Positions 3,585 to 17,729 of a stretch of DNA of 22,055 nt are shown in pieces. The position numbers and the translations under genes were made by a program. Source of the stretch: a virus; the IMG/VR virus record IMGVR_UViG_3300043399_001008, positions 1 to 22,055 of that record. The stretch is one strand, 5' to 3'. Position 1 is the first letter of the stretch, and every line of letters begins with the position of its first letter. The notes below the pieces were generated by a model that saw only the letters and a program-made list of their open reading frames with translations, was not told where the DNA came from and searched no databases.

Positions 3585-3600
3585 TTGAAATTGATTTCAA
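3585..3600. promoter_or_regulatory. Dispersed 16-bp dyad, site 3 (exact)
   Basis: TTGAAATTGATTTCAA is identical to the sites at 6664 and 10008. It lies 35 bp upstream of the start at 3636 and downstream of the candidate promoter at 3441, a position suited to a roadblock or operator. Confidence 0.8.
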
Positions 3601-3635: not shown

Positions 3636-4412
3636 ATGAGTGGTTATTTGCTTTTTAGTAGAACGGGCAATGCGGCGTTCGATAATGTCTTATCGACGAT
3701 TGAACAGGCCGGGGATGTCTTTCACAGTACAGTCGAGTGGGGGGAGGCGAGGGATTGGCTTGAGGGTTCTTCCTATACAGACAGGATCGACGAGGCGATT
3801 TGTGCGGCGGCGAAACAACTAGGGCAGGAAAGAAACAAACTGGAATCCGGGGTTTCACCGTTGCCACGTAACTATGGGGACTCTGATAGCGAAATGCTTA
3901 TTGCCGAGCGTGATCTAGGCGTTCGACAGTGCGATGGGTATGCGTCCCTTGCTAAAGAACTCCGTGAGGAAATTGCGCGTAAGGATAGGGTGATTGCCTA
4001 TTTGAGGCTAGAGACAAAAGCCTCCGTCGACGGGCCTGCGGCAGGTCTGCGAAGGGCGGCAGAAGCAGCCATTAACTTTCGTTCCGCTCGTGACGCTCTC
4101 GAAGTAGAGAGAATTGAGCTGTTGAATGATCTGGACAGGGTTATGGATACCGTCAAGTATCTAGTAGGGATCGCGGAGCGTGGAACGGGCACTAGCCTGC
4201 CGGATAACCAAACAGCCGAAGCGTTTGTTCTATCCTACGTGAAGCACCTCGAAGCAGAGAACGAGAGTCTGCGGGGGGCGTTGAGAAAGGCTAACCCAGC
4301 CATTGTAAGACTTTATGGGTGCTACCCGCCGCCATACAGAAATGACGCGGAGTCGGTGATGGTCAGGGAAGCACTGGAAGCAATCGACGCCACCATGAAG
4401 GGGATGAAATGA
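3636..4412 (+). CDS. Hypothetical coiled-coil protein (258 aa)
   Basis: I do not recognise this protein. The ATG at 3636 follows a strong SD (ATAGGAGGGCGTAAGT). The product is acidic and helical. Charged heptad-like stretches at about residues 85-130 (ELREEIARKDRVIAYLRLE) and 145-175 suggest coiled coils. A second leucine-rich helix (VKHLEAENESLRGALRKA) lies near residues 208-225. There is no membrane segment and no Cys cluster. It is the first gene of the long central run, just after a promoter and dyad. A structural or regulatory scaffold role is possible but unsupported. Confidence 0.8.
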   Translation: MSGYLLFSRTGNAAFDNVLSTIEQAGDVFHSTVEWGEARDWLEGSSYTDRIDEAICAAAKQLGQERNKLESGVSPLPRNYGDSDSEMLIAERDLGVRQCDGYASLAKELREEIARKDRVIAYLRLETKASVDGPAAGLRRAAEAAINFRSARDALEVERIELLNDLDRVMDTVKYLVGIAERGTGTSLPDNQTAEAFVLSYVKHLEAENESLRGALRKANPAIVRLYGCYPPPYRNDAESVMVREALEAIDATMKGMK

Positions 4413-5092: not shown

Positions 5093-5349
5093 CCACAGGT
5101 GAAGAAGCGATTATGCTGGCGAGAGAAGTCGCAGACCCACAGTCAATCGATCCTGTTGGAATACACGAAAGCAGTGTGTATCTGTCTATCGGCGAGTTAA
5201 TCAACCTCATCGACCTCGCCAAGCAGAAGGAGAACGAGGCTTGCGTGGCGATATGTGCAGAGCTTGTGAACAACGAGGAAAACACCGATGAATACCAATC
5301 CGGCGCTGCATGGTGCGGCTGGAAAATCAGTGCGAGGATGAAGCCATGA
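5089..5349 (+). CDS. Small phage protein with ENEACVAICAEL-type tail (86 aa)
   Basis: The ATG at 5089 follows TTTGGAGGTGGCGAA and overlaps the upstream stop as ATGA. A longer frame exists upstream, but it overlaps the 41-aa gene and lacks a better start. The C-terminal part (ENEACVAICAEL, then AAWCGWKISARMKP) resembles a recurring C-terminal module of small phage proteins in which a Cys-containing helix is followed by an A-x-x-C-x-x-x-I-x-x-R ending. The N-terminal 50 residues are acidic and helical. The function is unknown. Its stop overlaps the next start (ATGA). Confidence 0.75.
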   Translation: MTTGEEAIMLAREVADPQSIDPVGIHESSVYLSIGELINLIDLAKQKENEACVAICAELVNNEENTDEYQSGAAWCGWKISARMKP

Positions 5350-5765
5350 AAAAACGCGATCTAGTCCTACATTGCTCAATGTGCGGCAAGACTTTCCGCA
5401 AAGACGATGCCCCGGAATGTGGCGGCACATTTTCCGGTGAGAAGATTTGTCGGGCGGGTCTTCTGAAACGGGAACTCGATGAGCGATTTGAAAAGGAGAC
5501 CAAGTATTGCCGACGCTATCCGCGCAATGGCGAACTAATGGAAACCTACAAGAACTGGCTACGAAACGCCTACGAGTATTACTGGGGCGAAGGCTATACC
5601 ACTATGACAGACCACGAGTGGGACGCCCTTGCCCGTCAATTCGCGGAACGCTCGGAAGAGTTTGATGAGTTGCGGGGCCGGGACTACGACGGCGGCTCGC
5701 TATTCTGGATGAAGAGGGGTGACTACCCGGAGTGGGCAAAGACTATGAACGAAGCGAAGGGGTAG
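5346..5765 (+). CDS. Zinc-motif protein with NAD-ligase-Ia-like segment (139 aa)
   Basis: The ATG at 5346 overlaps the previous stop (ATGA) and uses GAGGATGAAGCC as a moderate SD. The N-terminus has CxxC (Cys10, Cys13) followed by Cys25 and Cys35, a likely zinc site. Residues about 70-108 (YEYYWGEGYTTMTDHEWDAL) resemble the Ia segment at the N-terminus of NAD-dependent DNA ligases (YY...D-x-E/W-D-x-L), which binds NMN. Nothing like the ligase catalytic KxDG is present, so it cannot be a ligase. A second protein with the same segment lies at 9571. The role is unknown; nucleotide binding or a phage-specific regulator is possible. Confidence 0.75.
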   Translation: MKKRDLVLHCSMCGKTFRKDDAPECGGTFSGEKICRAGLLKRELDERFEKETKYCRRYPRNGELMETYKNWLRNAYEYYWGEGYTTMTDHEWDALARQFAERSEEFDELRGRDYDGGSLFWMKRGDYPEWAKTMNEAKG

Positions 5766-5882: not shown

Positions 5883-6077
5883 ATGGAACGTAGGCGTATG
5901 CAGATGCACGGGGCACTGAGCGTAACCGTCGCCCTTGGTCTAACGCTATTGGCGCTGATCTGCGTAGGGGCTGTCTCCCTACTATTTGACGGTGGGCACA
6001 GGGTCATTGTTGTTGCGGTGCTTTGCCTTGTTATTGCTTTCGTAATGACGCATTGGCTCGACAAAAATGGTTACTAG
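5883..6077 (+). CDS. Two-helix membrane protein (64 aa), holin candidate
   Basis: The ATG at 5883 follows a very strong SD (ATAGGAGGAATACT). Residues about 10-34 (ALSVTVALGLTLLALICVGA) and 41-57 (VIVVAVLCLVIAFVM) form two transmembrane segments joined by a short loop with Asp, Gly and His. The N-terminus is basic (MERRRMQMH). Size, two helices and charged ends fit class II holins, but such proteins are too variable to name by eye. The likely endolysin is 4 kb downstream, so a lysis role is only a possibility. It overlaps the next gene by 11 bases. Confidence 0.75.
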   Translation: MERRRMQMHGALSVTVALGLTLLALICVGAVSLLFDGGHRVIVVAVLCLVIAFVMTHWLDKNGY

Positions 6078-6630
6078 AAGGGTGCGTATTCGCCGTGGGT
6101 CGGTTCCTTTGGAGGAGAAGGAGGAAGGGCCGAAATTCTCTCCCGGTGATCTTGTCTTCTTTGCGCCGGAGACGACCGTCTTTAAGAGACTCTTCCAAGT
6201 GCGGGAGATGCCGGACGAAAACGTATATACGATTGTCCGACTGACGGATGACAAGGTGCTTGTTGTCGATGAGAACGACCTATCTCCGGTAACAGAGGCG
6301 TGGATGCGGATGATTCGGGCGAAGATGGTCTATAACCTATCAACCGTGCAGGAATGGTTCGACACGCACATAGAGGCGGACGCTACCGGTGATAGAACGA
6401 ATGGCCTTCTCAAGGACGCTGGCGGTAGTGACAACGATAGACTATTCCGTTCTGAGAGCGCAGTATCGGCTTTGGCTAGCACACTGGCCCTCGCGGGTGC
6501 CATGACAGGTCGAATGTCCGGGGCGGTGCTGAACCCCTCCAATGCCCCGCGAGGGCTGCCCGGTGGCGCAACGGTACCGGAGGTGGGCTATACAGAAGGG
6601 GACGACAGCCGTAATTACGGTAGCCGATAG
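6067..6630 (+). CDS. Hypothetical protein with basic N-terminus (187 aa)
   Basis: I do not recognise this protein. The ATG at 6067 lies inside the end of the previous gene and has little SD, so translation may depend on coupling; an in-frame GTG at 6082 after AGAAGG is an alternative. The N-terminus is basic (TRRVRIRRG) and resembles the RVRRTR motif seen in other proteins of this window. Residues 22-75 (KFSPGDLVFFAPE, then VYTIVRLTDDKVLVVDE) look like a small beta-barrel of SH3 or KOW type. The C-terminal 70 residues are Gly/Asn/Ser-rich and probably disordered. Confidence 0.7.
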   Translation: MVTRRVRIRRGSVPLEEKEEGPKFSPGDLVFFAPETTVFKRLFQVREMPDENVYTIVRLTDDKVLVVDENDLSPVTEAWMRMIRAKMVYNLSTVQEWFDTHIEADATGDRTNGLLKDAGGSDNDRLFRSESAVSALASTLALAGAMTGRMSGAVLNPSNAPRGLPGGATVPEVGYTEGDDSRNYGSR

Positions 6631-6663: not shown

Positions 6664-6679
6664 TTGAAATTGATTTCAA
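6664..6679. promoter_or_regulatory. Dispersed 16-bp dyad, site 4 (exact)
   Basis: TTGAAATTGATTTCAA is followed at once by the SD AAGGAGG of the gene at 6694. The dyad and the ribosome-binding site are fused, so a bound protein would sit on the translation start region of the DNA. Confidence 0.8.
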
Positions 6680-8286: not shown

Positions 8287-8635
8287 CGGGTACGCGTACG
8301 CTGCAGGTAAGCTACTACGCAGTAACGGTAGCATCGAGTGTATTACGCGACTTGAGATGAAAGCCCTAGGGTGGGAGGATTTTCACGCGTTTGATAGGGG
8401 GATAGTGGCGGCACTTGCTGCATGGCGCTCCTTGCTTAAGGTTAGCGACCCCTGCGCAGACGGCAATCTTTGCAATCGATTGCAAATTGCACAGAATAGA
8501 ATGAACCATGTACGAACCTTGCTTAGCCTGCACCTGCAGGCTGCGCCAGAAGGCAACGGCTACGTGCAGGAGGCAGCAGACCTACTTGCGGCAGGCGTAT
8601 GTACTGGCTTTACTAAAGCAGCAGAGAGTGTGTAG
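8219..8635 (+). CDS. Hypothetical helical protein (138 aa)
   Basis: The ATG at 8219 has a strong SD (ATAGGAGAGAAGC) and overlaps the previous frame by 68 bases. The protein is helical and soluble. Two similar stretches (SNGYAYAAGKLLRSN near residues 22-36 and GNGYVQEAADLLAAG near 112-126) look like a repeated short motif. The N-terminus is basic (MLKRYRKWRQKL). An exact dyad (8470-8485) lies within the coding sequence at CNRLQIA. I do not recognise its function. Confidence 0.7.
   Translation: MLKRYRKWRQKLSAEIQAAQYSNGYAYAAGKLLRSNGSIECITRLEMKALGWEDFHAFDRGIVAALAAWRSLLKVSDPCADGNLCNRLQIAQNRMNHVRTLLSLHLQAAPEGNGYVQEAADLLAAGVCTGFTKAAESV
8470..8485. promoter_or_regulatory. Dispersed 16-bp dyad, site 5 (exact, intragenic)
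   Basis: TTGCAATCGATTGCAA is a fully symmetrical 16-bp palindrome. It lies inside the gene at 8219-8635, more than 200 bp from any start, so it is not a simple promoter operator. Confidence 0.75.
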
Positions 8636-9223: not shown

Positions 9224-9571
9224 ATGGCACGTAAGGTATCCCTCTGCGTTGAAGAAGGGCAGCAGGTATTTTTCTACTCTAAGGCTAGATATATAGCGTC
9301 GGAGATGGTTCGCGTAACGAGTGTTAGCCCCCTATGGGCCAATCTAAGTAACGGGTTCAAAGCGAACAGATACTCCGGGGTCTGTGACGGCGGGGAGTTC
9401 CCTTCGCCGGGGACGATATATTGCAGTACGGAAGACTGGGAGGAGGAGCAGGCGCTGTATAAAACATGGGCCAAGCTGCGCAGGGAGATAGAACGGCTCC
9501 ATGATCTGCCAGAAGGGATTACGCGCCGGAAGCTCCTTATGGTTCGCAGGCTTTTACAGATAGGTGAGTGA
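9224..9571 (+). CDS. Hypothetical protein (115 aa)
   Basis: I do not recognise this protein. The ATG at 9224 follows AAAGGGGAAGGTAT. The first half is beta-like (KVSLCVEEGQQVFFYSKARY) with a Gly-rich middle containing one Cys pair (CDGGEF and IYCSTE). The second half is a charged amphipathic helix (EEQALYKTWAKLRREIERLH) that could be a coiled coil. It ends with an overlapping TGATG that couples it to the next gene. Confidence 0.7.
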   Translation: MARKVSLCVEEGQQVFFYSKARYIASEMVRVTSVSPLWANLSNGFKANRYSGVCDGGEFPSPGTIYCSTEDWEEEQALYKTWAKLRREIERLHDLPEGITRRKLLMVRRLLQIGE

Positions 9572-10011
9572 TGGAAAGGGTGCGTAGAACCAGAGCCTCT
9601 CCTGTGGTAGAATCCACGCCGCTTCGTGTACGCCGTTCCCGTCCTGTCCCCGTGGAGGAAGAGCAGCGAAGGGTACGAAGAACCCGCCCAGTCGCCTCGG
9701 GGCTAGATAGGCATAGCGGAGACCCCAGACAGCGCTTTGTAATTGACTGGGGGAAGTCGCTAGGGTGGAAGCTGCAGATATACCTTGTATCCTCGTATCT
9801 GTACTACGAGATGAGTAGGTCGATTATCACAGACCATGACTTTGACAGGCTGTGCAAGGAACTCAATGAAGGGTGGAATACTTTCGAGCACCAGCATAAG
9901 CACTGCACCAGCCGGGGTGCTATGGTCGCAGGAACTGGGTATGCCAATACGTACCCTTTGATGGTAAGAGGGGCAGCGGATGTGATGCTGCATACGTTTT
10001 ACGAAGTTTGA
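9571..10011 (+). CDS. RVRRTR-repeat protein with NAD-ligase-Ia-like domain (146 aa)
   Basis: The ATG at 9571 overlaps the previous stop (TGATG). Residues 1-43 hold three basic repeats: RVRRTR (3-8), RVRRSR (19-24) and RVRRTR (34-39), 15-16 residues apart and separated by Pro/Val/Glu linkers. Residues about 64-100 (YLVSSYLYYEMSRSIITDHD, then FDRLCKEL) match the Ia segment of NAD-dependent DNA ligase, as in a small phage family I know as LigA-related proteins. The ending HKHCTSRG, then GTGYANTYPLMVRGAA is also typical of that family. No adenylation KxDG is present, so it is not a ligase. The gene at 5346 has a related segment. Confidence 0.8.
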   Translation: MERVRRTRASPVVESTPLRVRRSRPVPVEEEQRRVRRTRPVASGLDRHSGDPRQRFVIDWGKSLGWKLQIYLVSSYLYYEMSRSIITDHDFDRLCKELNEGWNTFEHQHKHCTSRGAMVAGTGYANTYPLMVRGAADVMLHTFYEV

Positions 10012-10023
10012 AATTGATTTCAA
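10008..10023. promoter_or_regulatory. Dispersed 16-bp dyad, site 6 (exact)
   Basis: TTGAAATTGATTTCAA starts on the stop codon of the previous gene (TGA at 10009-10011) and ends at the SD (AAGGAG) of the 49-aa gene at 10039. It is identical to the sites at 3585 and 6664. Confidence 0.8.
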
Positions 10024-10038
10024 AAGGAGAGATAACTA

Positions 10039-10188
10039 ATGTGGTATGGCCTCAAAGAAGACGGTAAATTGATAGCGGTACGCTACTTTGACCATTACCC
10101 AGACATTCGTGATTTTGACGTAATCCCCAGAGGCAGAAAGCACACAATTGTATATGTACGCGTGCGAGAGGTCTGCCGAACACCGTGA
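10039..10188 (+). CDS. Small basic protein (49 aa)
   Basis: This short gene fills the gap between the LigA-related gene and the endolysin. The ATG at 10039 has a strong SD (AAAAGGAGAGATAACTA) fused to a dyad site. The product is basic and beta-like: MWYGLKEDGKLIAVRYFDHY, then RKHTIVYVRVREVC. There is no membrane segment or signal. It stops 6 bases before the endolysin start, so the two are co-translated. The function is unknown; by position it could belong to the lysis group. Confidence 0.65.
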   Translation: MWYGLKEDGKLIAVRYFDHYPDIRDFDVIPRGRKHTIVYVRVREVCRTP

Positions 10189-10194
10189 GGTCCT

Positions 10195-10659
10195 ATGGAT
10201 ACCATCCTTTTATGTCTCGCTCTGACAGTCTTTCAGGAGGCACGCGGAGAGCCTATTATCGGGCAACGCGCTGTAGCAACCGTAGTAGTAAATCGCGCAC
10301 GCATACGAAATACCACGATATGTGACGCCGTACTAGAGAAAGGGCAGTTTAGTTGGCACCCTGAGCGGTATATAGCGAAGGTAAAGCGCAGCACCGGGCA
10401 GAAAAACGAGCACCGGATAGCCGTATCGCGCCTCCCAACTAGGGCAAAAGGGTGGACTGCTTCGGTAGCTGCCGCCAAGTACGCCCTTTCCACTAAAGAA
10501 ACACTGCAAAATGCCGAATTTTTCCATGCCTCGCACGTAAAACCGCCTTGGAAAAGAAGGTTTTCAGTGGTTTTTAGGGCAGGAAATCACGTTTTTTACG
10601 CTAGAAAGATAGTAAAAGTGGCGCTGCGTGCCGGTTCCCTTCCCGCAAAAGACGCGTAA
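10195..10659 (+). CDS. SleB-like cell wall hydrolase, probable endolysin (154 aa)
   Basis: The ATG at 10195 follows GTGAGGTCCT. The protein matches the Hydrolase_2/SleB-CwlJ family: EARGEP at residues 15-20 with the presumed catalytic Glu, GQRAVATVVVNR at 23-34, FFHASHVKPPW at 109-119 and GNHVFY at 130-135. These enzymes cut the glycan strands of peptidoglycan, most likely as lytic transglycosylases. The length is just that of one domain, with no wall-binding repeat, as expected for phages of Gram-negative hosts. No cleavable signal is clear; the hydrophobic start belongs to the fold, so export would need a holin. This is the best lysis gene here. Confidence 0.85.
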   Translation: MDTILLCLALTVFQEARGEPIIGQRAVATVVVNRARIRNTTICDAVLEKGQFSWHPERYIAKVKRSTGQKNEHRIAVSRLPTRAKGWTASVAAAKYALSTKETLQNAEFFHASHVKPPWKRRFSVVFRAGNHVFYARKIVKVALRAGSLPAKDA

Positions 10660-10702
10660 AATACGTAAAAATCACCTTTTTTAGACGAAACGGGGGCAGA
10701 AA

Positions 10703-11119
10703 ATGGACAAAAAACCACCTAAAAAGAAGGAAAACGACAGTAGTCTCAAGGAGCGCGAGGTTTTTCTAGAGAAGCTGGATGCCCAAGCCGAGCATCGTAT
10801 ACGTAACTGGGCGGACCTTTACACCGGGCTTAAGCAGCAAATACACACGTACATCGACAGCCCCTCCAAGGAAGCTGCGGATTTCACTATAACGCTACTT
10901 CATTGTTTCGTACTAGCTCTTGAGGACCTGCCGGACGAAGGGGACGCACAGGTAATATACAAGCACATTAACAAACTCCTTATAATGGGAGAGGAAAGAA
11001 CGGGTGCATACCTTCTAGTGGGGGCAGAAGCCGAAGAGGAGCGCCGTTTGCGTGACGCGTCTGCCGCCGCAGAGGTGGCCCTTGGGCAGGCTTCCGTACC
11101 TACTCGGGTTTTGCACTAA
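10703..11119 (+). CDS. Hypothetical charged protein (138 aa)
   Basis: I do not recognise this protein. The ATG at 10703 follows CGGGGGCAGAAA, a weak SD. The N-terminus is a Lys/Pro-rich tail (MDKKPPKKKENDSSLKERE). It is followed by a helical core (residues 18-105) and an acidic Ala/Glu helix (EAEEERRLRDASAAAEVAL) near the end. There is no membrane segment, so it does not look like a holin. The stop overlaps the next start as TAATG, which couples it to the M15-like gene. Confidence 0.7.
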   Translation: MDKKPPKKKENDSSLKEREVFLEKLDAQAEHRIRNWADLYTGLKQQIHTYIDSPSKEAADFTITLLHCFVLALEDLPDEGDAQVIYKHINKLLIMGEERTGAYLLVGAEAEEERRLRDASAAAEVALGQASVPTRVLH

Positions 11120-12135
11120 TGGCGTACATAGACCCTACGCGCCTTCGCCTATCGGACCATTTTCTCTTGTCTGATTTCATAGGGAATCACTCTGTTTTCA
11201 CGAAAGGGTATAAGAACCTTTTTGTAGACCCTACCGGCGGTAAGGTAAAAGAGGCGAAGCACCTATGCGAGACACTCCTTGAACCACTACTGCAGGAGTA
11301 TGGGCCGTTAAGTGTATCTTACGGGTATATCTCCCCGGAACTCAGTAAAAAGATCGTGTCGTACCAAGACCCGACGGCCCCCTCCTACCATCGCTGGGAT
11401 AAAGGAGCAGCCGCAGATATCCTCTTGCACTACCCCCTACAGGTGCAGGGGTATTCACCGATAGAGATAGCGCACCGTATCGATGAACAGTACGACTACT
11501 CCCGCATGATTACCTACTCCGAGAGTCCTTTTATCTGTGTCGCCACGCAGATTAACGAAGGGGATAACCCACGAAAGGCGTTTTACGAGAATAGGTATTG
11601 TGGGAAAAAGGGGGCGAAACCCACGTATATAAAGAAAAGTGCAACGCCGGAGGGCAGGCGTAAGCAGGCCGCTGCTCTTTTTCTAGAGCATGACTGGCGA
11701 GGGGCGGGGTACCCTACCTATCACGGGGGTGGCATTCGACAGCTTCAGCATATACGCGTCTCCAAGTACGCCGTTGCTTCTGACTTCCTGTACTCCACGC
11801 ATGCAGTACGTGAAGGCATTGCAAATGTCCCCGACATGCGAAGAGATAGCGGTGTGTTCGAGGCAGCAGGGGCCGCGTACGACGACCTTTTGAAAACGTT
11901 GGACACCCCACGGATAAGTATTGTGAGAGCCTTTGAGTCTTTCCGCTTTAACGACTATCCTTTATTTGGGTGGAGGGATAATTTTGCAATCGATTTCATC
12001 CCCCCTTCGTATATCACTCTTGACGAGCTGGCCGATGCCGCTTTGACTATGCTAGGTAAGCATTTCTGTACCGTAGCTGCGTCGAAGGATACCGGTACCG
12101 TTCGTGTAGTAGGAGCATTTGACCATGTTAGCTGA
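11119..12135 (+). CDS. M15-like (D-Ala-D-Ala carboxypeptidase-type) protein (338 aa)
   Basis: The ATG at 11119 overlaps the upstream stop (TAATG) and has no SD of its own, so it likely depends on coupled re-initiation. The N-terminal part has LSDHFLLSDF (11-20) and SYGYISPELSKKIV (67-80). It also has SYHRWDKGAAADI (89-101), which matches the SxH...GxAxD zinc-site pattern of peptidase M15 (His91 and Asp100 as ligands). Family members trim peptidoglycan peptides. The expected second His-ligand motif (WxH) is not obvious, so activity is uncertain. The C-terminal 200 residues are unassigned; RYCGKKGAKPTYIK is a basic patch. A near-consensus dyad lies at 11984. Confidence 0.7.
   Translation: MAYIDPTRLRLSDHFLLSDFIGNHSVFTKGYKNLFVDPTGGKVKEAKHLCETLLEPLLQEYGPLSVSYGYISPELSKKIVSYQDPTAPSYHRWDKGAAADILLHYPLQVQGYSPIEIAHRIDEQYDYSRMITYSESPFICVATQINEGDNPRKAFYENRYCGKKGAKPTYIKKSATPEGRRKQAAALFLEHDWRGAGYPTYHGGGIRQLQHIRVSKYAVASDFLYSTHAVREGIANVPDMRRDSGVFEAAGAAYDDLLKTLDTPRISIVRAFESFRFNDYPLFGWRDNFAIDFIPPSYITLDELADAALTMLGKHFCTVAASKDTGTVRVVGAFDHVS
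11984..11999. promoter_or_regulatory. Dispersed 16-bp dyad, site 7 (one mismatch, intragenic)
   Basis: TTGCAATCGATTTCAT differs from the family consensus only at the last base. It lies inside the M15-like gene, 126 bp before the next start. It is weaker evidence than the exact copies, but its spacing fits the series. Confidence 0.6.
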
Positions 12136-12511
12136 ACGCGTAGGAAGAACACGCACGGTAGAATACACAATCACTTACCTGCAGCGTAAGAAAGAGCTTT
12201 ACATATACGTCGGTAGCACATGGGTAGGGCGTATCATCAAGCGTATCGAGGACCCCTTGCATAAGGAGACCCATTTTGCCGGGTATTTACAGCTACCCGG
12301 ATGCTGGGGTCCTGTGTCGCGTGCGCCTACAGTGCATGAAGTAAAGATCGAGGTCACAGCCGCTATCCGAGGGTGGCTAGCTACGCTCAGTGCCACGCCT
12401 ACCGATCCGGAGGAGAGGCCAGAGAAAGAGACGCAAAACGGTAGAGTACGCCGCACCCGCGCTGCCCCTACCCCCTACATCGTACCTACTAGGGTAAGGA
12501 GAACGCGGTGA
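12125..12511 (+). CDS. Hypothetical protein with RVRRTR termini (128 aa)
   Basis: I do not recognise the central part. The ATG at 12125 is chosen for the SD TAGGAG with 9-base spacing; an in-frame TTG at 12119 is too close. The gene overlaps the previous one by 11 bases. The N-terminus carries ERVGRTR (4-10) and the C-terminus carries RVRRTR twice (107-112 and 123-128), 16 residues apart with a Pro-rich linker (AAPTPYIVPT). The middle is beta-like with Trp and Tyr. The same basic motif occurs three times in the protein at 9571, with different codons. The ending is exactly RVRRTR plus the stop. Confidence 0.75.
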   Translation: MLAERVGRTRTVEYTITYLQRKKELYIYVGSTWVGRIIKRIEDPLHKETHFAGYLQLPGCWGPVSRAPTVHEVKIEVTAAIRGWLATLSATPTDPEERPEKETQNGRVRRTRAAPTPYIVPTRVRRTR

Positions 12512-12558: not shown

Positions 12559-12928
12559 AGGGGCGTATCCGCGAGAGTTAAAGAAGTTTTGTATCAGGTA
12601 CGCGCATAAGGCACAGACGGGATACCCCGTAGCTGGGGTGGTCGTAGTAGTTGATGCTAGAGGGAAAGGGTACACACGTATTCGTTTCGACGAGGCATTA
12701 GTTGGCGCGGTGGGTAAGGCTATGCCTATGGGGGTTTCCCCGGAGCACCCATGCTATCTGAAAGTGCTTCAGGTACTAGGTACAGAGAGGTGGCGAGTAT
12801 TTGCGTACTACCTTGACGCGGGACGAGGAGTACTGCTTTGGGAGGCGGGAGAGAAACCCGCTTGGGTTAAAAACGTAAGGAGAGACGATAATGGAAAGAC
12901 TCAGAAGGCAGAAGGTGTTGAACCTTGA
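12551..12928 (+). CDS. Hypothetical protein (125 aa)
   Basis: I do not recognise this protein. The ATG at 12551 lies about 11 bases after GAGGAG, which is long spacing; the mini-ORF at 12511 may help translation. The product is basic at the N-terminus (MRKGAYPRELKKFCIRYAHK). It has a clear beta stretch (GYPVAGVVVVVDARGKGYTR), then an alpha/beta middle with Cys and Trp. The C-terminus is charged and overlaps the next gene by 38 bases. No catalytic motif is evident. Confidence 0.65.
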   Translation: MRKGAYPRELKKFCIRYAHKAQTGYPVAGVVVVVDARGKGYTRIRFDEALVGAVGKAMPMGVSPEHPCYLKVLQVLGTERWRVFAYYLDAGRGVLLWEAGEKPAWVKNVRRDDNGKTQKAEGVEP

Positions 12929-13232
12929 AGAGGAGCCTGAAGACATCGGTGAAGAGGAAGAGGCCGAAGAGGTCGAAGGTACCGGAGAGGAGGCCGCTGA
13001 CCTCCTGAATGAGCCGTCCTACGAAGTTGCCGAAGGGGAGACTGTGCAGCAGGCGCAGGACCGGATAGAGGCAAAATACAAGGCACGGGCTAAGTCTCCC
13101 CTCAAAGCTATTCGTGCGTTTTGCGTTCTTTGTATGGGCGCGCAGCCGCGAGAGGTGGCGCATTGTACAGCGACAAGTTGTGTTTTATACAAGTTTCGCT
13201 TCGGGCGGAACCCTTACCAGAAGAGAGGGTAA
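12891..13232 (+). CDS. Phage zinc-motif protein with AIRxxCxxC...C....C tail (113 aa)
   Basis: The ATG at 12891 has a strong SD (GTAAGGAGAGACGATA) and overlaps the previous gene by 38 bases. Residues 12-45 are highly acidic (EEEPEDIGEEEEAEEVEG). The C-terminal part (SPLKAIRAFCVLCMGAQPRE, then VAHCTATSCVLYKFRFGRNP) matches a module common in phage proteins: AIRxxCxxCxG...EVxxC....CxLYxxRxGxxP. Its four Cys probably bind zinc. The role is unknown. The mix of an acidic tail and a zinc ribbon could suit binding to a host DNA-binding protein, but this is inference. Confidence 0.75.
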   Translation: MERLRRQKVLNLEEEPEDIGEEEEAEEVEGTGEEAADLLNEPSYEVAEGETVQQAQDRIEAKYKARAKSPLKAIRAFCVLCMGAQPREVAHCTATSCVLYKFRFGRNPYQKRG

Positions 13233-14052: not shown

Positions 14053-15660
14053 ATGGAACCGAAAAGAATTACCCGCTCCCGTACGCGGGGGGATGTTGCC
14101 CTAACTACTCGTGTTGTTAGTGTGCCCAGAAAACGCGCTGACGTATCCCGGCAGGTAGAGGCGGATAGGTCGAATGGTCTTGCCGCCAGTACTGCCCCTA
14201 TCACCCCTCCTTACGATATTGATGGCCTTCTATACGTCTATGCACAGAGCAACATGCTGAAACAGTGCGTAGAGGCATACGTAACGAACATCGCGCTATG
14301 CGGGTATGAGATAGTCCCTGCGGCTAAAGGCGTACCGATGGACCCGGCAGAGGTGGAAGAGCTGCAATCGTTTATAGATAGCGCTAACTCCGAGGAATCC
14401 CTTACTGGCCTGATCGCAAAACTGGAAGAGGATTACGAAAAACTAGGCCATTCCTATATCGAAGTTATCCGGGACAGAACCCGCCGTGTTTCCATCTTGC
14501 GCCACGCTAGGGCATCGGTTACTCGGGTGTGCCCCAAAGACCCTCAGACAGTCCCAGTACGCTATGATGTACGGCGAGGCCGGAGAACGTCCTACGTTAC
14601 AGAGATGCGTACTTTCCGTATCTTTAGGCAGCAAGACGGTGGTGCCATTACCTACTTCAAAGAGTTTGGGGACCCCCGTAAGCTTGACTACAGGACAGGA
14701 TTATTTGCTACTACAGAGCGCCCTGTGCCTCCGGAAAACGAGGCTACTGAGTTGATCCACCACCGGCAGAACTCTGAAGACGCGTACGGGGTGCCTCGTT
14801 GGGTTAGCCAGCTTCCATCTATCCTCGGCAGTCGTGAGGCAGAGGAGGTTAACCTACGGTATTTCGAGGATAACACTGTCCCACCGATGATCTTGTCCGT
14901 CTCTGGGGGCAGACTAACGGCTGAATCCTTCCGGGGGCTTAAAACTTTGCTAAACCAGCAAAGCGTAGGCAAAGAGAGGCAGAACAAAATCCTGCTGGTA
15001 GAGGCCGTACCTGAGCGTGAAAGTCTGGACGACAAAGGCTCTGTACAGCTCAAGGTGGATAAGCTCACGGATGCACGGCAGAGCGACGGACTGTTCAAAG
15101 AGTATGACGAATCCAATCAGGCAAAGGTACGGTCATCTTTCCGCCTTCCGCCTGCTTCAGTAGGTCTCTCGCAGGATGTCACTTTCGCTACGGCTAATGT
15201 GTCTCAATTCATCGCGGAGACACAGGTATATGCCCCGCAGCGTAAGTTACTTGACGAGATGCTAAATAAGCGACTGGTCAATCACATGGAAGGGCTGGCC
15301 CTCTCTACTGTCGCACTCCGTAGTCAGACTCCGGCTATTACCAACCCAGAAGGATTGATTAAGAGCCTGACCGCCCTAAACGTCATGGGGGCCGTAACGC
15401 CGCGTCGTGCGCTTATAGCGGCCAACTCGATTCTGCAGATCGATATGGACCCATACCCGGAGAAGGGAGAAGAAGGGTACGAAGAGTGGATGGATAAGCC
15501 GATCATCTTTGCCGCCAAGGGCGATAGCGGGAATACTGGTATCGATCCAGCGAAGACGGGCAACACACACGCAGAGCAGGAAGGTAAAGATGCCGACACT
15601 AAAGCGGTAGAAGCGGACGGTGATACCTCGGCAAAGAACCCAGAACACGGACAGGAGTAA
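14053..15660 (+). CDS. Portal protein (535 aa)
   Basis: The ATG at 14053 follows TAAGAGGACACTAC. The protein matches the phage portal family (PBSX-type): an early helical region (LLYVYAQSNMLKQCVEAYVT), then GVPRWVSQLPSILGSREAEE, then NTVPPMILSVSGGRLT and ERQNKILLVEA, with a long wing and clip region. Portals form the dodecameric ring for DNA packaging and tail joining. The N-terminus is basic (RITRSRTRG, then RVVSVPRKR) and resembles the RVRRTR motif of other proteins here. The C-terminal 50 residues are acidic and Thr/Gly-rich. The stop is 3 bases before the protease start. No terminase lies upstream. Confidence 0.9.
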   Translation: MEPKRITRSRTRGDVALTTRVVSVPRKRADVSRQVEADRSNGLAASTAPITPPYDIDGLLYVYAQSNMLKQCVEAYVTNIALCGYEIVPAAKGVPMDPAEVEELQSFIDSANSEESLTGLIAKLEEDYEKLGHSYIEVIRDRTRRVSILRHARASVTRVCPKDPQTVPVRYDVRRGRRTSYVTEMRTFRIFRQQDGGAITYFKEFGDPRKLDYRTGLFATTERPVPPENEATELIHHRQNSEDAYGVPRWVSQLPSILGSREAEEVNLRYFEDNTVPPMILSVSGGRLTAESFRGLKTLLNQQSVGKERQNKILLVEAVPERESLDDKGSVQLKVDKLTDARQSDGLFKEYDESNQAKVRSSFRLPPASVGLSQDVTFATANVSQFIAETQVYAPQRKLLDEMLNKRLVNHMEGLALSTVALRSQTPAITNPEGLIKSLTALNVMGAVTPRRALIAANSILQIDMDPYPEKGEEGYEEWMDKPIIFAAKGDSGNTGIDPAKTGNTHAEQEGKDADTKAVEADGDTSAKNPEHGQE

Positions 15661-15663
15661 AAA

Positions 15664-15679
15664 ATGCAATCGATTGCAA
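15664..15679. promoter_or_regulatory. Dispersed 16-bp dyad, site 9 (one mismatch, over a start codon)
   Basis: ATGCAATCGATTGCAA matches the family at 13 of 14 fixed positions. Its first three bases are the protease start codon, so the site encodes MQSIA. The mismatch is the A of ATG, suggesting the site and the start codon are balanced against each other. Confidence 0.6.
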
Positions 15680-16272
15680 AAGAAGTACGCCTGTCTATCA
15701 GGGCCGATAAGGAGTGGGAGCGGGTAGTTTTCGCCGAAGTCCTTATCCCTGACGTTCCCAATGTATTCGGGGACTACTGGACGCGAGAGAGTGTTAAGCA
15801 GGCTGCGTACGTTTTCATGCAGGCAGGTTTCGGTATAGACGTTGAGCACGATAACGTCGACGTACAAGGGACAGGGGCCGTAGTGGTTGAGTCTTTTATC
15901 GTACGCAAGGGCGACCCGGACTTTATCGAAGGCTCATGGGTGGTAGGCATGCGGATCATTGATGATGCCCTATGGGCGGGGGTGTTGGACGGGACAATCA
16001 ATGGGTACTCGTACGAGGCTCTGGTTGAATTCTTTTCAGGATTCATTACCCTTGTAGATGACGGCATGCGACGGGGGATTACGGAGCCTGACCTAGAGGA
16101 CGGACACACTCACGAATTTGTAGTACTGGTCGATATGAATAACCGACCTATTGATGGCGGTACCACAGTGACGGACGGGCATGCGCATACGATCTCTACG
16201 CATACTGTCACCGACGAGGCCGACGGGCATACCCATAGGTTCAATCTTGTAAGCGGAAAGGATGGAAAATGA
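15664..16272 (+). CDS. XkdF-like phage capsid maturation serine protease (202 aa)
   Basis: The ATG at 15664 uses AGGAGTAAAAA, with the SD over the portal stop. The core matches the XkdF-like phage protease family: VLIPDVPNVFGDYWTRESVK, then FGIDVEHDNVDV (presumed catalytic His), VVESFIVRKGDPDFIEGSWV and TINGYSYEALV (presumed catalytic Ser). Such enzymes trim the scaffold and capsid proteins in the prohead. The C-terminus adds three DGH(T/A)H blocks (EDGHTHEFVV, TDGHAHTIS, ADGHTHRFN) which could bind metal. It lies between portal and scaffold-like gene and overlaps the next gene by ATGA, the classic order. Confidence 0.85.
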   Translation: MQSIAKEVRLSIRADKEWERVVFAEVLIPDVPNVFGDYWTRESVKQAAYVFMQAGFGIDVEHDNVDVQGTGAVVVESFIVRKGDPDFIEGSWVVGMRIIDDALWAGVLDGTINGYSYEALVEFFSGFITLVDDGMRRGITEPDLEDGHTHEFVVLVDMNNRPIDGGTTVTDGHAHTISTHTVTDEADGHTHRFNLVSGKDGK

Positions 16273-17729
16273 CGCTAAGGCGCATCAAACGGATGGACGG
16301 GATTGCGGAGGAAGTGACAAAGCCTGTCGAAGTAAGTAAACTCATAGAGCCAAAGTTCTTGACGCTGACGGAAAAGCCCGCAAATCAAACAGCGTTCAAG
16401 GTTATTCGTGATGATACAAATGGAGAAGCCCCAATGACTGAGAAGACGCCTGCCGTTGAACCAACGCGCCGCCGCCGAATCCGTTCTACACAGCGCTCTT
16501 CGTTGCTCTTCGTAGAGTTCCCGGAAGGGGCTACGGATGAAGAGGTGACGCAGGTGGCTGTAGAGTACGGTCTTGAAGAGTACGAAGTTACGCAAACGGC
16601 AGACGGTAGAAAGTGCCTGAAGCGTAGCGACCTCCCGGAAATCCCGAAGGATGCCCTTACCGTAGGTATCGGCGGTGGGCGTAAGGCAGGAGTGGTTAGG
16701 GCCGCGACCCCTGCCCCTGCGGCAGAGGCCATGCCCTATATCGAGACGGTTGCTGTAGAGTTCGATAAGGCAAAATTTGCCACGGAAGACGCAGTTATGG
16801 GGTACCTGCAGCGGTACGATATTGACTTCCTTGAGCAAGGCGTCGAGAATACGGACAAGCAGATTCGTGTTGTGCGTTCCGAGTTGGCTCCTGATGCAGA
16901 AATTCGCCGCGTAGAGGTAGAGACCGGGGTAGTGGCAGTAGTTACCCGTGCAGCGGTACAGGAAGTCTCCCTCGTCCCCTCGCCTTTCACCGAGATTGTC
17001 TGCGAAGAGTGTTATGGGCAGTGGGGGTGGGGGCAGTTGGACTTCAACGCAATCATGGCAGACATTGAGTTTTGCGAAGCGGCTGATGAGGCTACCTACC
17101 GTCTCCGTAACTTGATCGAACGTATTCTGTTCTATAGCCAGCTTCCGATCATTGCACGTAAGGAATTGGTAAATCGTGCTTGTACGCAGTTTGGCGATTA
17201 CGTCGGCGCTCTACTTGACGGCCTGCCATCAAAAGTTGTATTAGTTAATCGTTCCACTCTCGAAACCAAGAAGGAGACTCAAGTTATGACCCAGAAGACC
17301 AACGATCCGGCACCCGCTGCTGCCGTTGAAACCGCCGCTGTTGCCTCCGTTGCTGCTACTGCGGCCACTGACGACAGTACCCCTATCACGCGCTCAGAAC
17401 TCAAGACAATGATCGCGGAGAGCATCGCCACAGCGCTCGCTTCTGTTACGACCGCTACGACTGCTACTACGGAGACTACCGCCCCGACCCCTGAAACTGT
17501 GGCACGGGCTGATGACACCCAAGGTGAAGGCGAAGTTGCTACGGCGGCTACGTCGGTTGACTCGGTTGCCAAGTCTGTTGAGGGACTTGCTGCCACAATT
17601 CAGACGCTGGTATCCCGGATGGACACGCTGGCCGGTTCTACCACCGTACGCTCGGACAGTAGCGACAGTGTGGTAGCTGCGCCGAAGACTGACGTATTCG
17701 CTGGAATCTTCAGCACCAACCGCAAGTAA
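16269..17729 (+). CDS. Scaffold-like structural protein with nested in-frame starts (486 aa)
   Basis: The ATG at 16269 overlaps the protease stop (ATGA) after GGAAAGGATGGAAA. No single known family covers all of it. Residues about 56-77 are basic (EPTRRRRIRSTQRSS). Residues 78-230 contain two beta-alpha units (LFVEFPEGATDEEVTQVAVE and TVAVEFDKAKFATEDAVMGY). Residues 235-335 form a helical part with an aromatic-Cys segment (CEECYGQWGWG). From 340 the sequence is low complexity, Ala/Thr-rich and helical (MIAESIATALASVTTATTAT), typical of scaffolds, and ends NRK. In-frame ATGs at 16434 and 17286 have good SDs. By position between protease and capsid it is probably scaffold plus structural precursor. 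Confidence 0.75.
   Translation: MTLRRIKRMDGIAEEVTKPVEVSKLIEPKFLTLTEKPANQTAFKVIRDDTNGEAPMTEKTPAVEPTRRRRIRSTQRSSLLFVEFPEGATDEEVTQVAVEYGLEEYEVTQTADGRKCLKRSDLPEIPKDALTVGIGGGRKAGVVRAATPAPAAEAMPYIETVAVEFDKAKFATEDAVMGYLQRYDIDFLEQGVENTDKQIRVVRSELAPDAEIRRVEVETGVVAVVTRAAVQEVSLVPSPFTEIVCEECYGQWGWGQLDFNAIMADIEFCEAADEATYRLRNLIERILFYSQLPIIARKELVNRACTQFGDYVGALLDGLPSKVVLVNRSTLETKKETQVMTQKTNDPAPAAAVETAAVASVAATAATDDSTPITRSELKTMIAESIATALASVTTATTATTETTAPTPETVARADDTQGEGEVATAATSVDSVAKSVEGLAATIQTLVSRMDTLAGSTTVRSDSSDSVVAAPKTDVFAGIFSTNRK
17286..17729 (+). CDS. Possible nested scaffold from internal start (147 aa)
   Basis: Inside the 486-codon gene, AAGGAG at 17271-17276 lies 9 bases before an in-frame ATG at 17286, among the best ribosome sites in the window. 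The product would start MTQKTNDPAPAAAVE and consist of the Ala/Thr-rich helical region only. Nested scaffolds made from internal starts of capsid assembly genes are known (for example lambda Nu3 within C). A second internal start at 16434 (MTEKTPAVEPT, with SD GGAG at 8-base spacing) has a similar leader. Whether these are used is unproven. Confidence 0.5.
   Translation: MTQKTNDPAPAAAVETAAVASVAATAATDDSTPITRSELKTMIAESIATALASVTTATTATTETTAPTPETVARADDTQGEGEVATAATSVDSVAKSVEGLAATIQTLVSRMDTLAGSTTVRSDSSDSVVAAPKTDVFAGIFSTNRK

Follow-up and report, generated by a model that had tools for sequence, protein, structure and literature searches.

A short Arg-rich peptide of the RVRRTR type recurs at the very N- or C-terminal ends of numerous non-homologous proteins in a siphophage genome fragment and its relatives. 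Judged from the sequences, it is a lineage-wide terminal tag set on DNA-handling, packaging and head-assembly proteins. The fragment is a virus record of 22,055 bases, and this whole stretch of DNA is called the window below. Its portal protein shares 49% identity with the portal of Pseudomonas phage SM1 (genus Samunavirus) and 69% with the one encoded on G001, a 102 kb IMG/VR contig. The open-access PMC literature that we searched, on this phage group too, yielded no mention of such a tag, which appears not to have been described before.

Tagged proteins in the window

The small protein encoded at 9571..10011 (plus strand; protein 9571) has an Arg- and Pro-rich tail that looks disordered, followed by an Nlig-Ia (DNA-ligase Ia-like) domain. 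The tail holds three tags within the first 39 residues, RVRRTR (residues 3-8, positions 9577-9594), RVRRSR (residues 19-24, 9625-9642) and RVRRTR (residues 34-39, 9670-9687), as the initial annotation had described. Residues 67-125 match Pfam PF22745 (E=1.6e-10). An identity as NAD-dependent DNA ligase was rejected; the Ia-like domain alone is matched, and the adenylation and OB domains are unmatched. The protein is therefore not a ligase but an Ia domain that stands alone. Its homologues are also tagged, in G008 (gene at 81059) with RVRRVR at the N-terminus and in SM1 (gp119) with TRVRRRSR at the C-terminus. Judged by eye, the C-terminal half of the product of 5310-5765 is similar to the Ia-like domain found in protein 9571 (YYWGEGYTTMTDHEWDALARQF), so the window may contain two such small proteins.

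A second small protein, of no assigned function, is encoded at 12125..12511 (plus strand; protein 12125) and carries tags at both termini. RVGRTR lies at residues 5-10 (12137-12154), and two copies of RVRRTR lie at residues 107-112 (12443-12460) and at the final residues 123-128 (12491-12508), again in agreement with the initial annotation. The family retains a C-terminal RxRRxRxA at 32% identity; in the alignment of its three members R107, R109, R110, R112 and A114 are kept. An AF2 model of protein 12125 gave pLDDT values below 50 for residues 1-12 and for almost all of 91-128, with a more confident core at 15-90. A fold search with this protein returned no significant match (best E=0.15).

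Basic stretches that had been pointed out in three further proteins are present. The portal protein (14053..15660, plus strand; Pfam Phage_portal, E=7.6e-13) has an N-terminal RITRSR at 14065-14082. The scaffold-like protein, encoded between the protease and the major capsid protein (16269..17729, plus strand), has an N-proximal RRRRIRSTQR at 16467-16496, and its orthologues are tagged at residues 47-50 with RVRRAR (G008) and RVRRVR (G012). The protein of no assigned function at 6067..6630 (plus strand) has an N-terminal RRVRIRR at 6076-6096; no homologue of it was found among the relatives compared. A small acidic cysteine-rich protein (12891..13232, plus strand) begins MERLRRQK without a full tag in the window, and its orthologues are tagged with MVRVRRTR (G001), RVRRVR (G008) or RIRRTR plus RVRRVR (G012).

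The window also contains repeated DNA elements. The 16-bp palindrome TTGAAATTGATTTCAA occurs at 3585-3600, 6664-6679 and 10008-10023, 30-51 bases before the gene starts at 3636, 6694 and 10039. Palindromes of the same length, TTGCAATCGATTGCAA and ATGCAATCGATTGCAA, occur at 8470-8485 and 15664-15679; ATGCAATCGATTGCAA extends over the protease gene start and is translated there as MQSIA. Relatives repeat N-termini such as MQSIA, MKSIS and LQSIAT, and Aeromonas phage HJ05 has LQPVAK four times. The repeated palindromes are possibly an operator or a 5'-UTR element. At the contig end (1-78) there is a perfect 23-bp tandem repeat, CGTACTGTTATATATTTTTACTA, in 3.4 copies.

Frequency, codons and spacing

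The pattern R[VI].R[TS]R matches the window proteins seven times, and 0.05 matches are expected when each protein is shuffled. None of 1,000 shuffles reached seven matches, which excludes chance, and the frequency is far higher than Arg content would predict. The preference is for Arg rather than for basic residues in general, with an Arg:Lys ratio of 28:1 in the tags of the window and 394:266 in its proteome.

The initial annotation had noted that codons differ between the copies. Comparing the tags of proteins 9571 and 12125, we found the same codon at 17 of 48 same-residue positions, with 10.3 expected from the codon usage of the window. These differences exclude recent DNA copying, and recent duplication was rejected as the source of the tags; they do not exclude distant copying. 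The 15-16-residue period that had been proposed did not hold up as a general property of the tags. In relatives of the window, neighbouring copies are spaced by 12-40 residues, and by 12, 13, 19 and 25 in homologous or similar tails, so a repeat unit of 15-16 residues was rejected.

In the window, G001 and G008 the tags are tight, R-V-R-R-x-R with almost no Lys. Position 5 is mostly T or S in the window and G001 and often V or I in G008 (p=0.007, from hand-collected counts). Non-homologous tags are more alike within a genome than between genomes even when Lys is read as Arg (16.88 vs 16.15; 0/500 permutations). The difference is small but consistent, and the likeness goes beyond charge.

Relatives carry the tag at protein termini

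Direct searches of viral contigs with proteins 9571 and 12125 found no relatives; since this first scan gave no direct homologue, relatives were fetched through neighbour genes (the portal and an endolysin-like protein). In these, the longest open frames were taken as genes, and some of the contigs are fragments. The tag-bearing relatives include Samunavirus SM1, several IMG/VR phages of 85-104 kb and HJ05. They bear the same kind of tag right at one end, N- or C-terminal, of many proteins that lack homology to each other. Some of these are orthologous to tagged proteins of the window, so that the tag is conserved in relatives. In G001, a 110-aa protein ends in RLRRTR, a 65-aa protein starts MMAVKRVRRTR and a 126-aa protein has tag copies close to its C-terminal end. 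The portal of G006 starts MSTSRVRRTR, and SRIRRSR is the extreme C-terminal end of the SM1 DNA polymerase. Six non-homologous proteins of G008 contain RVRRVR; in shuffled proteomes any hexamer is shared by at most two. In eight genomes, 29 of 33 profile matches fall in the first 45 or the last 35 residues of the protein (background 0.35), a figure that is partly circular because the profile was derived from matches in the same eight genomes. The control phages PAK_P1 and lambda have no terminal excess.

The same pattern is seen in a held-out set of relatives that were fetched by an SSB-alignment scan and not used in defining the tag. Here gp38 starts MSIGRIRRVR, MVARRIRRVR, MTERIIRRTR and similar, RecA starts MATRRTRS or MVTRTRRVRT, and the exonuclease starts MPIIRRIRTR or MVTRLRRT. 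The polymerase of contigs L122-L125 has such a tag at or near its C-terminal end, and a primase ending YIRRTR occurs in L124 and L125 alone. AT-rich or distant genomes have Lys-rich tails, such as MAERKKRKRKSK in G009 and KIKLRKQRG in phage JP1.

Tags follow protein function

Protein roles were assigned from the SM1 gene order and from Pfam and PHROG names. The tagged proteins are the AAA+ ATPase, gp27, DNA polymerase, gp38 (encoded by the gene after the polymerase), the putative SSB (gp42), helicase (gp43), gp45, RecA, a Cas4-type exonuclease, an HTH protein preceding the terminase, the terminase large subunit (TerL), the portal and the scaffold-like gp129. By a strict basic-terminus criterion, with tag thresholds set after the tags had been seen, tags occur on 44 of 159 DNA and packaging proteins and on none of 87 tail, lysis, major-capsid and protease proteins; a looser criterion gives 100/159 and 19/87. 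Because orthologues are not independent, the count by family is fairer, namely 19 of 24 DNA and packaging families against 0 of 17 tail, lysis, major-capsid and protease families (p=3e-7). The major capsid protein (0/8) and the protease (0/14) have no strict tags, and 13 of 14 portals in the clade pass the loose threshold for a basic terminus. Tags on DNA-handling and packaging proteins, with none on tail or lysis proteins, suggest a protein-sorting or docking signal.

The tag is not fixed to one end of a protein. In the polymerase it is C-terminal in SM1, G015 and L122-L125, N-terminal in HJ05 and absent in G001 and G008. TerL is tagged N-terminally in G001 and G008 and C-terminally in HJ05, and the ligase-Ia-like protein N-terminally in the window and G008 and C-terminally in SM1. 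These orthologues indicate that the tag is gained, lost or shifted between termini. Several tagged proteins are without a tag in sister genomes, hence the tag is not essential for each of them.

The SSB and its acidic tip

The gp42 gene sits between those for primase and helicase. Homologues of gp42 are annotated as ssDNA-binding protein, once as T4 gp32-like. Its best PDB sequence matches are gp32 (weak, E=0.8), its best Foldseek matches are bacterial SSBs (weak, E of at least 0.07), and an SSB profile search gave low-complexity matches only.

In bacteria, the DDIPF-type tip of SSB binds partner proteins. Two relatives have this canonical acidic tip, and in them tags are absent or rare. The SSB homologue of Rhizobium phage L338C ends EMDDNIPF, with strict tags on 0 of 11 proteins, and that of contig L128 ends EDDIPF, with strict tags on 1 of 4. 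The SSBs of tagged genomes have no DDIPF-type tip and often have a tag at the end. In G001, G008 and SM1, acidic and basic blocks alternate in the SSB tail and the basic tag comes last; in JP1 and RcTiptonus the tail is purely acidic. In the SSB of HJ05 there are basic tags, but acidic blocks are lacking. The SSB tail therefore cannot be the sole partner of the tag, and we discarded the view that an acidic tail of this protein is the only hub. Stenotrophomonas phage DLP_5 (L131) lacks both the tags and a DDIPF-type tip, and one trait therefore does not always take the place of the other. With these exceptions, the relation between SSB tip and tag holds as a correlation across few lineages and does not amount to a rule.

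The C-tail of the G001 SSB (L109, 9001-10098) and its homologues is a long block polyampholyte in which acidic blocks alternate with RRSxxR-like blocks; in the whole G001 protein 6 acidic and 11 basic blocks were counted. Such a composition is typical of phase-separating proteins. The AF2 model of this SSB has a pLDDT below 50 in the tail. In DLP_5, MGVK starts three proteins of the replication module (gp54, gp60 and a RecA-like protein) and is perhaps another shared terminus. We do not claim it as an alternative, as three proteins and two DNA pattern matches are too few.

What the tag may do

The tag is over-represented in unrelated proteins and, in the two that were modelled with AF2 (protein 12125 and the G001 SSB), its location is predicted to be disordered. 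In both respects it resembles a short linear motif, and it would seem to behave as a convergent one in disordered termini. The reading we favour, to which we give an even chance, is that the tag serves as a docking or localisation motif that brings the proteins of replication, recombination, packaging and head assembly together on a single anionic partner. Disordered Arg-rich motifs appended to the termini of these proteins would hold them on this one shared partner, most likely the phage DNA itself, the acidic tail of the putative gp32-like SSB, or both. The tagged proteins would thereby become concentrated at the centre of phage replication and packaging. An anionic common partner is the simplest reading, and a fully sequence-specific hub is possible. 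The portal N-terminus and the scaffold count against docking to DNA or SSB, since neither has an obvious need to bind them. The shared tag proposed in the initial annotation was right in kind. Its role is best read as localisation or as docking via an anionic partner, and cleavage is a poor fit, given that the tags sit at extreme termini and move between them.

A further reading, which we put forward tentatively, is a proteome-wide address system. A lineage-specific Arg tag would be read by a co-evolving phage hub that collects the machinery of replication, recombination, packaging and head assembly in one membraneless factory, and this would have replaced the canonical SSB acidic-tip network.

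Plain electrostatics is a possible but rather doubtful alternative. The tags would be generic basic tails that bind nucleic acid, with neither motif specificity nor a protein partner. Such tails would be expected on proteins that mostly handle DNA, and across the clade charge is indeed kept better than sequence, up to the Lys-rich tails of AT-rich or distant genomes. However, the tags of the window, G001 and G008 are much tighter than charge requires, tags within a genome are alike beyond charge, and portal and scaffold-like proteins are tagged too. It is unlikely that the tag is a head-targeting peptide that carries proteins into the prohead, as the capsid-targeting sequence of T4 internal proteins does. 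The tags on portal, scaffold-like protein and terminase would suit this role, but polymerase, RecA, exonuclease, AAA+ ATPase and SSB bear the tag at least as often, it is C-terminal as well as N-terminal, and the major capsid protein and the protease are untagged under the strict criterion. Arg-rich peptides of similar size bind RNA in other phages, and a sequence-specific motif that reads a phage RNA would agree with the preference for Arg over Lys; since it is DNA-handling and head proteins that carry the tags, we consider this very improbable. Neutral drift, or the functionless spread of a peptide-coding DNA element, could account for the slight codon excess between copies but is disfavoured as the least probable explanation, because most codons differ, the tag is limited to DNA, packaging and assembly proteins, orthologues with 30-60% identity retain it, and it switches from one terminus to the other.

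A removable, genome-specific tag of six residues on most of the relevant proteins makes the gathering of the machinery in shell-less phages directly testable, and Samunavirus SM1 grows on Pseudomonas aeruginosa. The tag also flags uncharacterised small proteins as probable members of a DNA-handling network, which should aid annotation.

Comparison with known systems

The eukaryotic monopartite nuclear localisation signal is likewise a short basic motif for protein sorting, but a bacterial virus has no nucleus and there is only a resemblance. The phage nucleus of the Chimalliviridae imports proteins selectively (PMC11087766, PMC8191949) and likewise collects DNA replication and recombination proteins in one place; the genomes of the tagged phages are much smaller, and a term search of PMC11087766 brought up no shared short terminal motif. 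The capsid-targeting sequence of T4 is N-terminal and confined to packaged proteins, whereas the tag is also C-terminal and also on replisome proteins. In phage phi29, the N-terminal domain of the terminal protein binds DNA independently of sequence and localises to the nucleoid (PMC4357725). There, an extension at one terminus localises a replication protein through non-specific DNA binding, as the tag might do, but in phi29 it is a domain of one protein and here a short tag on many.

The tag is also like the network around the acidic SSB tip (DDIPF) and like the acidic tails of T7 gp2.5 and T4 gp32, in which a flexible charged terminus gathers genome-maintenance proteins. The outgroup relatives of the tagged clade possess that very tip. 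In the tagged clade, by contrast, the motif is basic and is carried by many partners, packaging and head proteins included.
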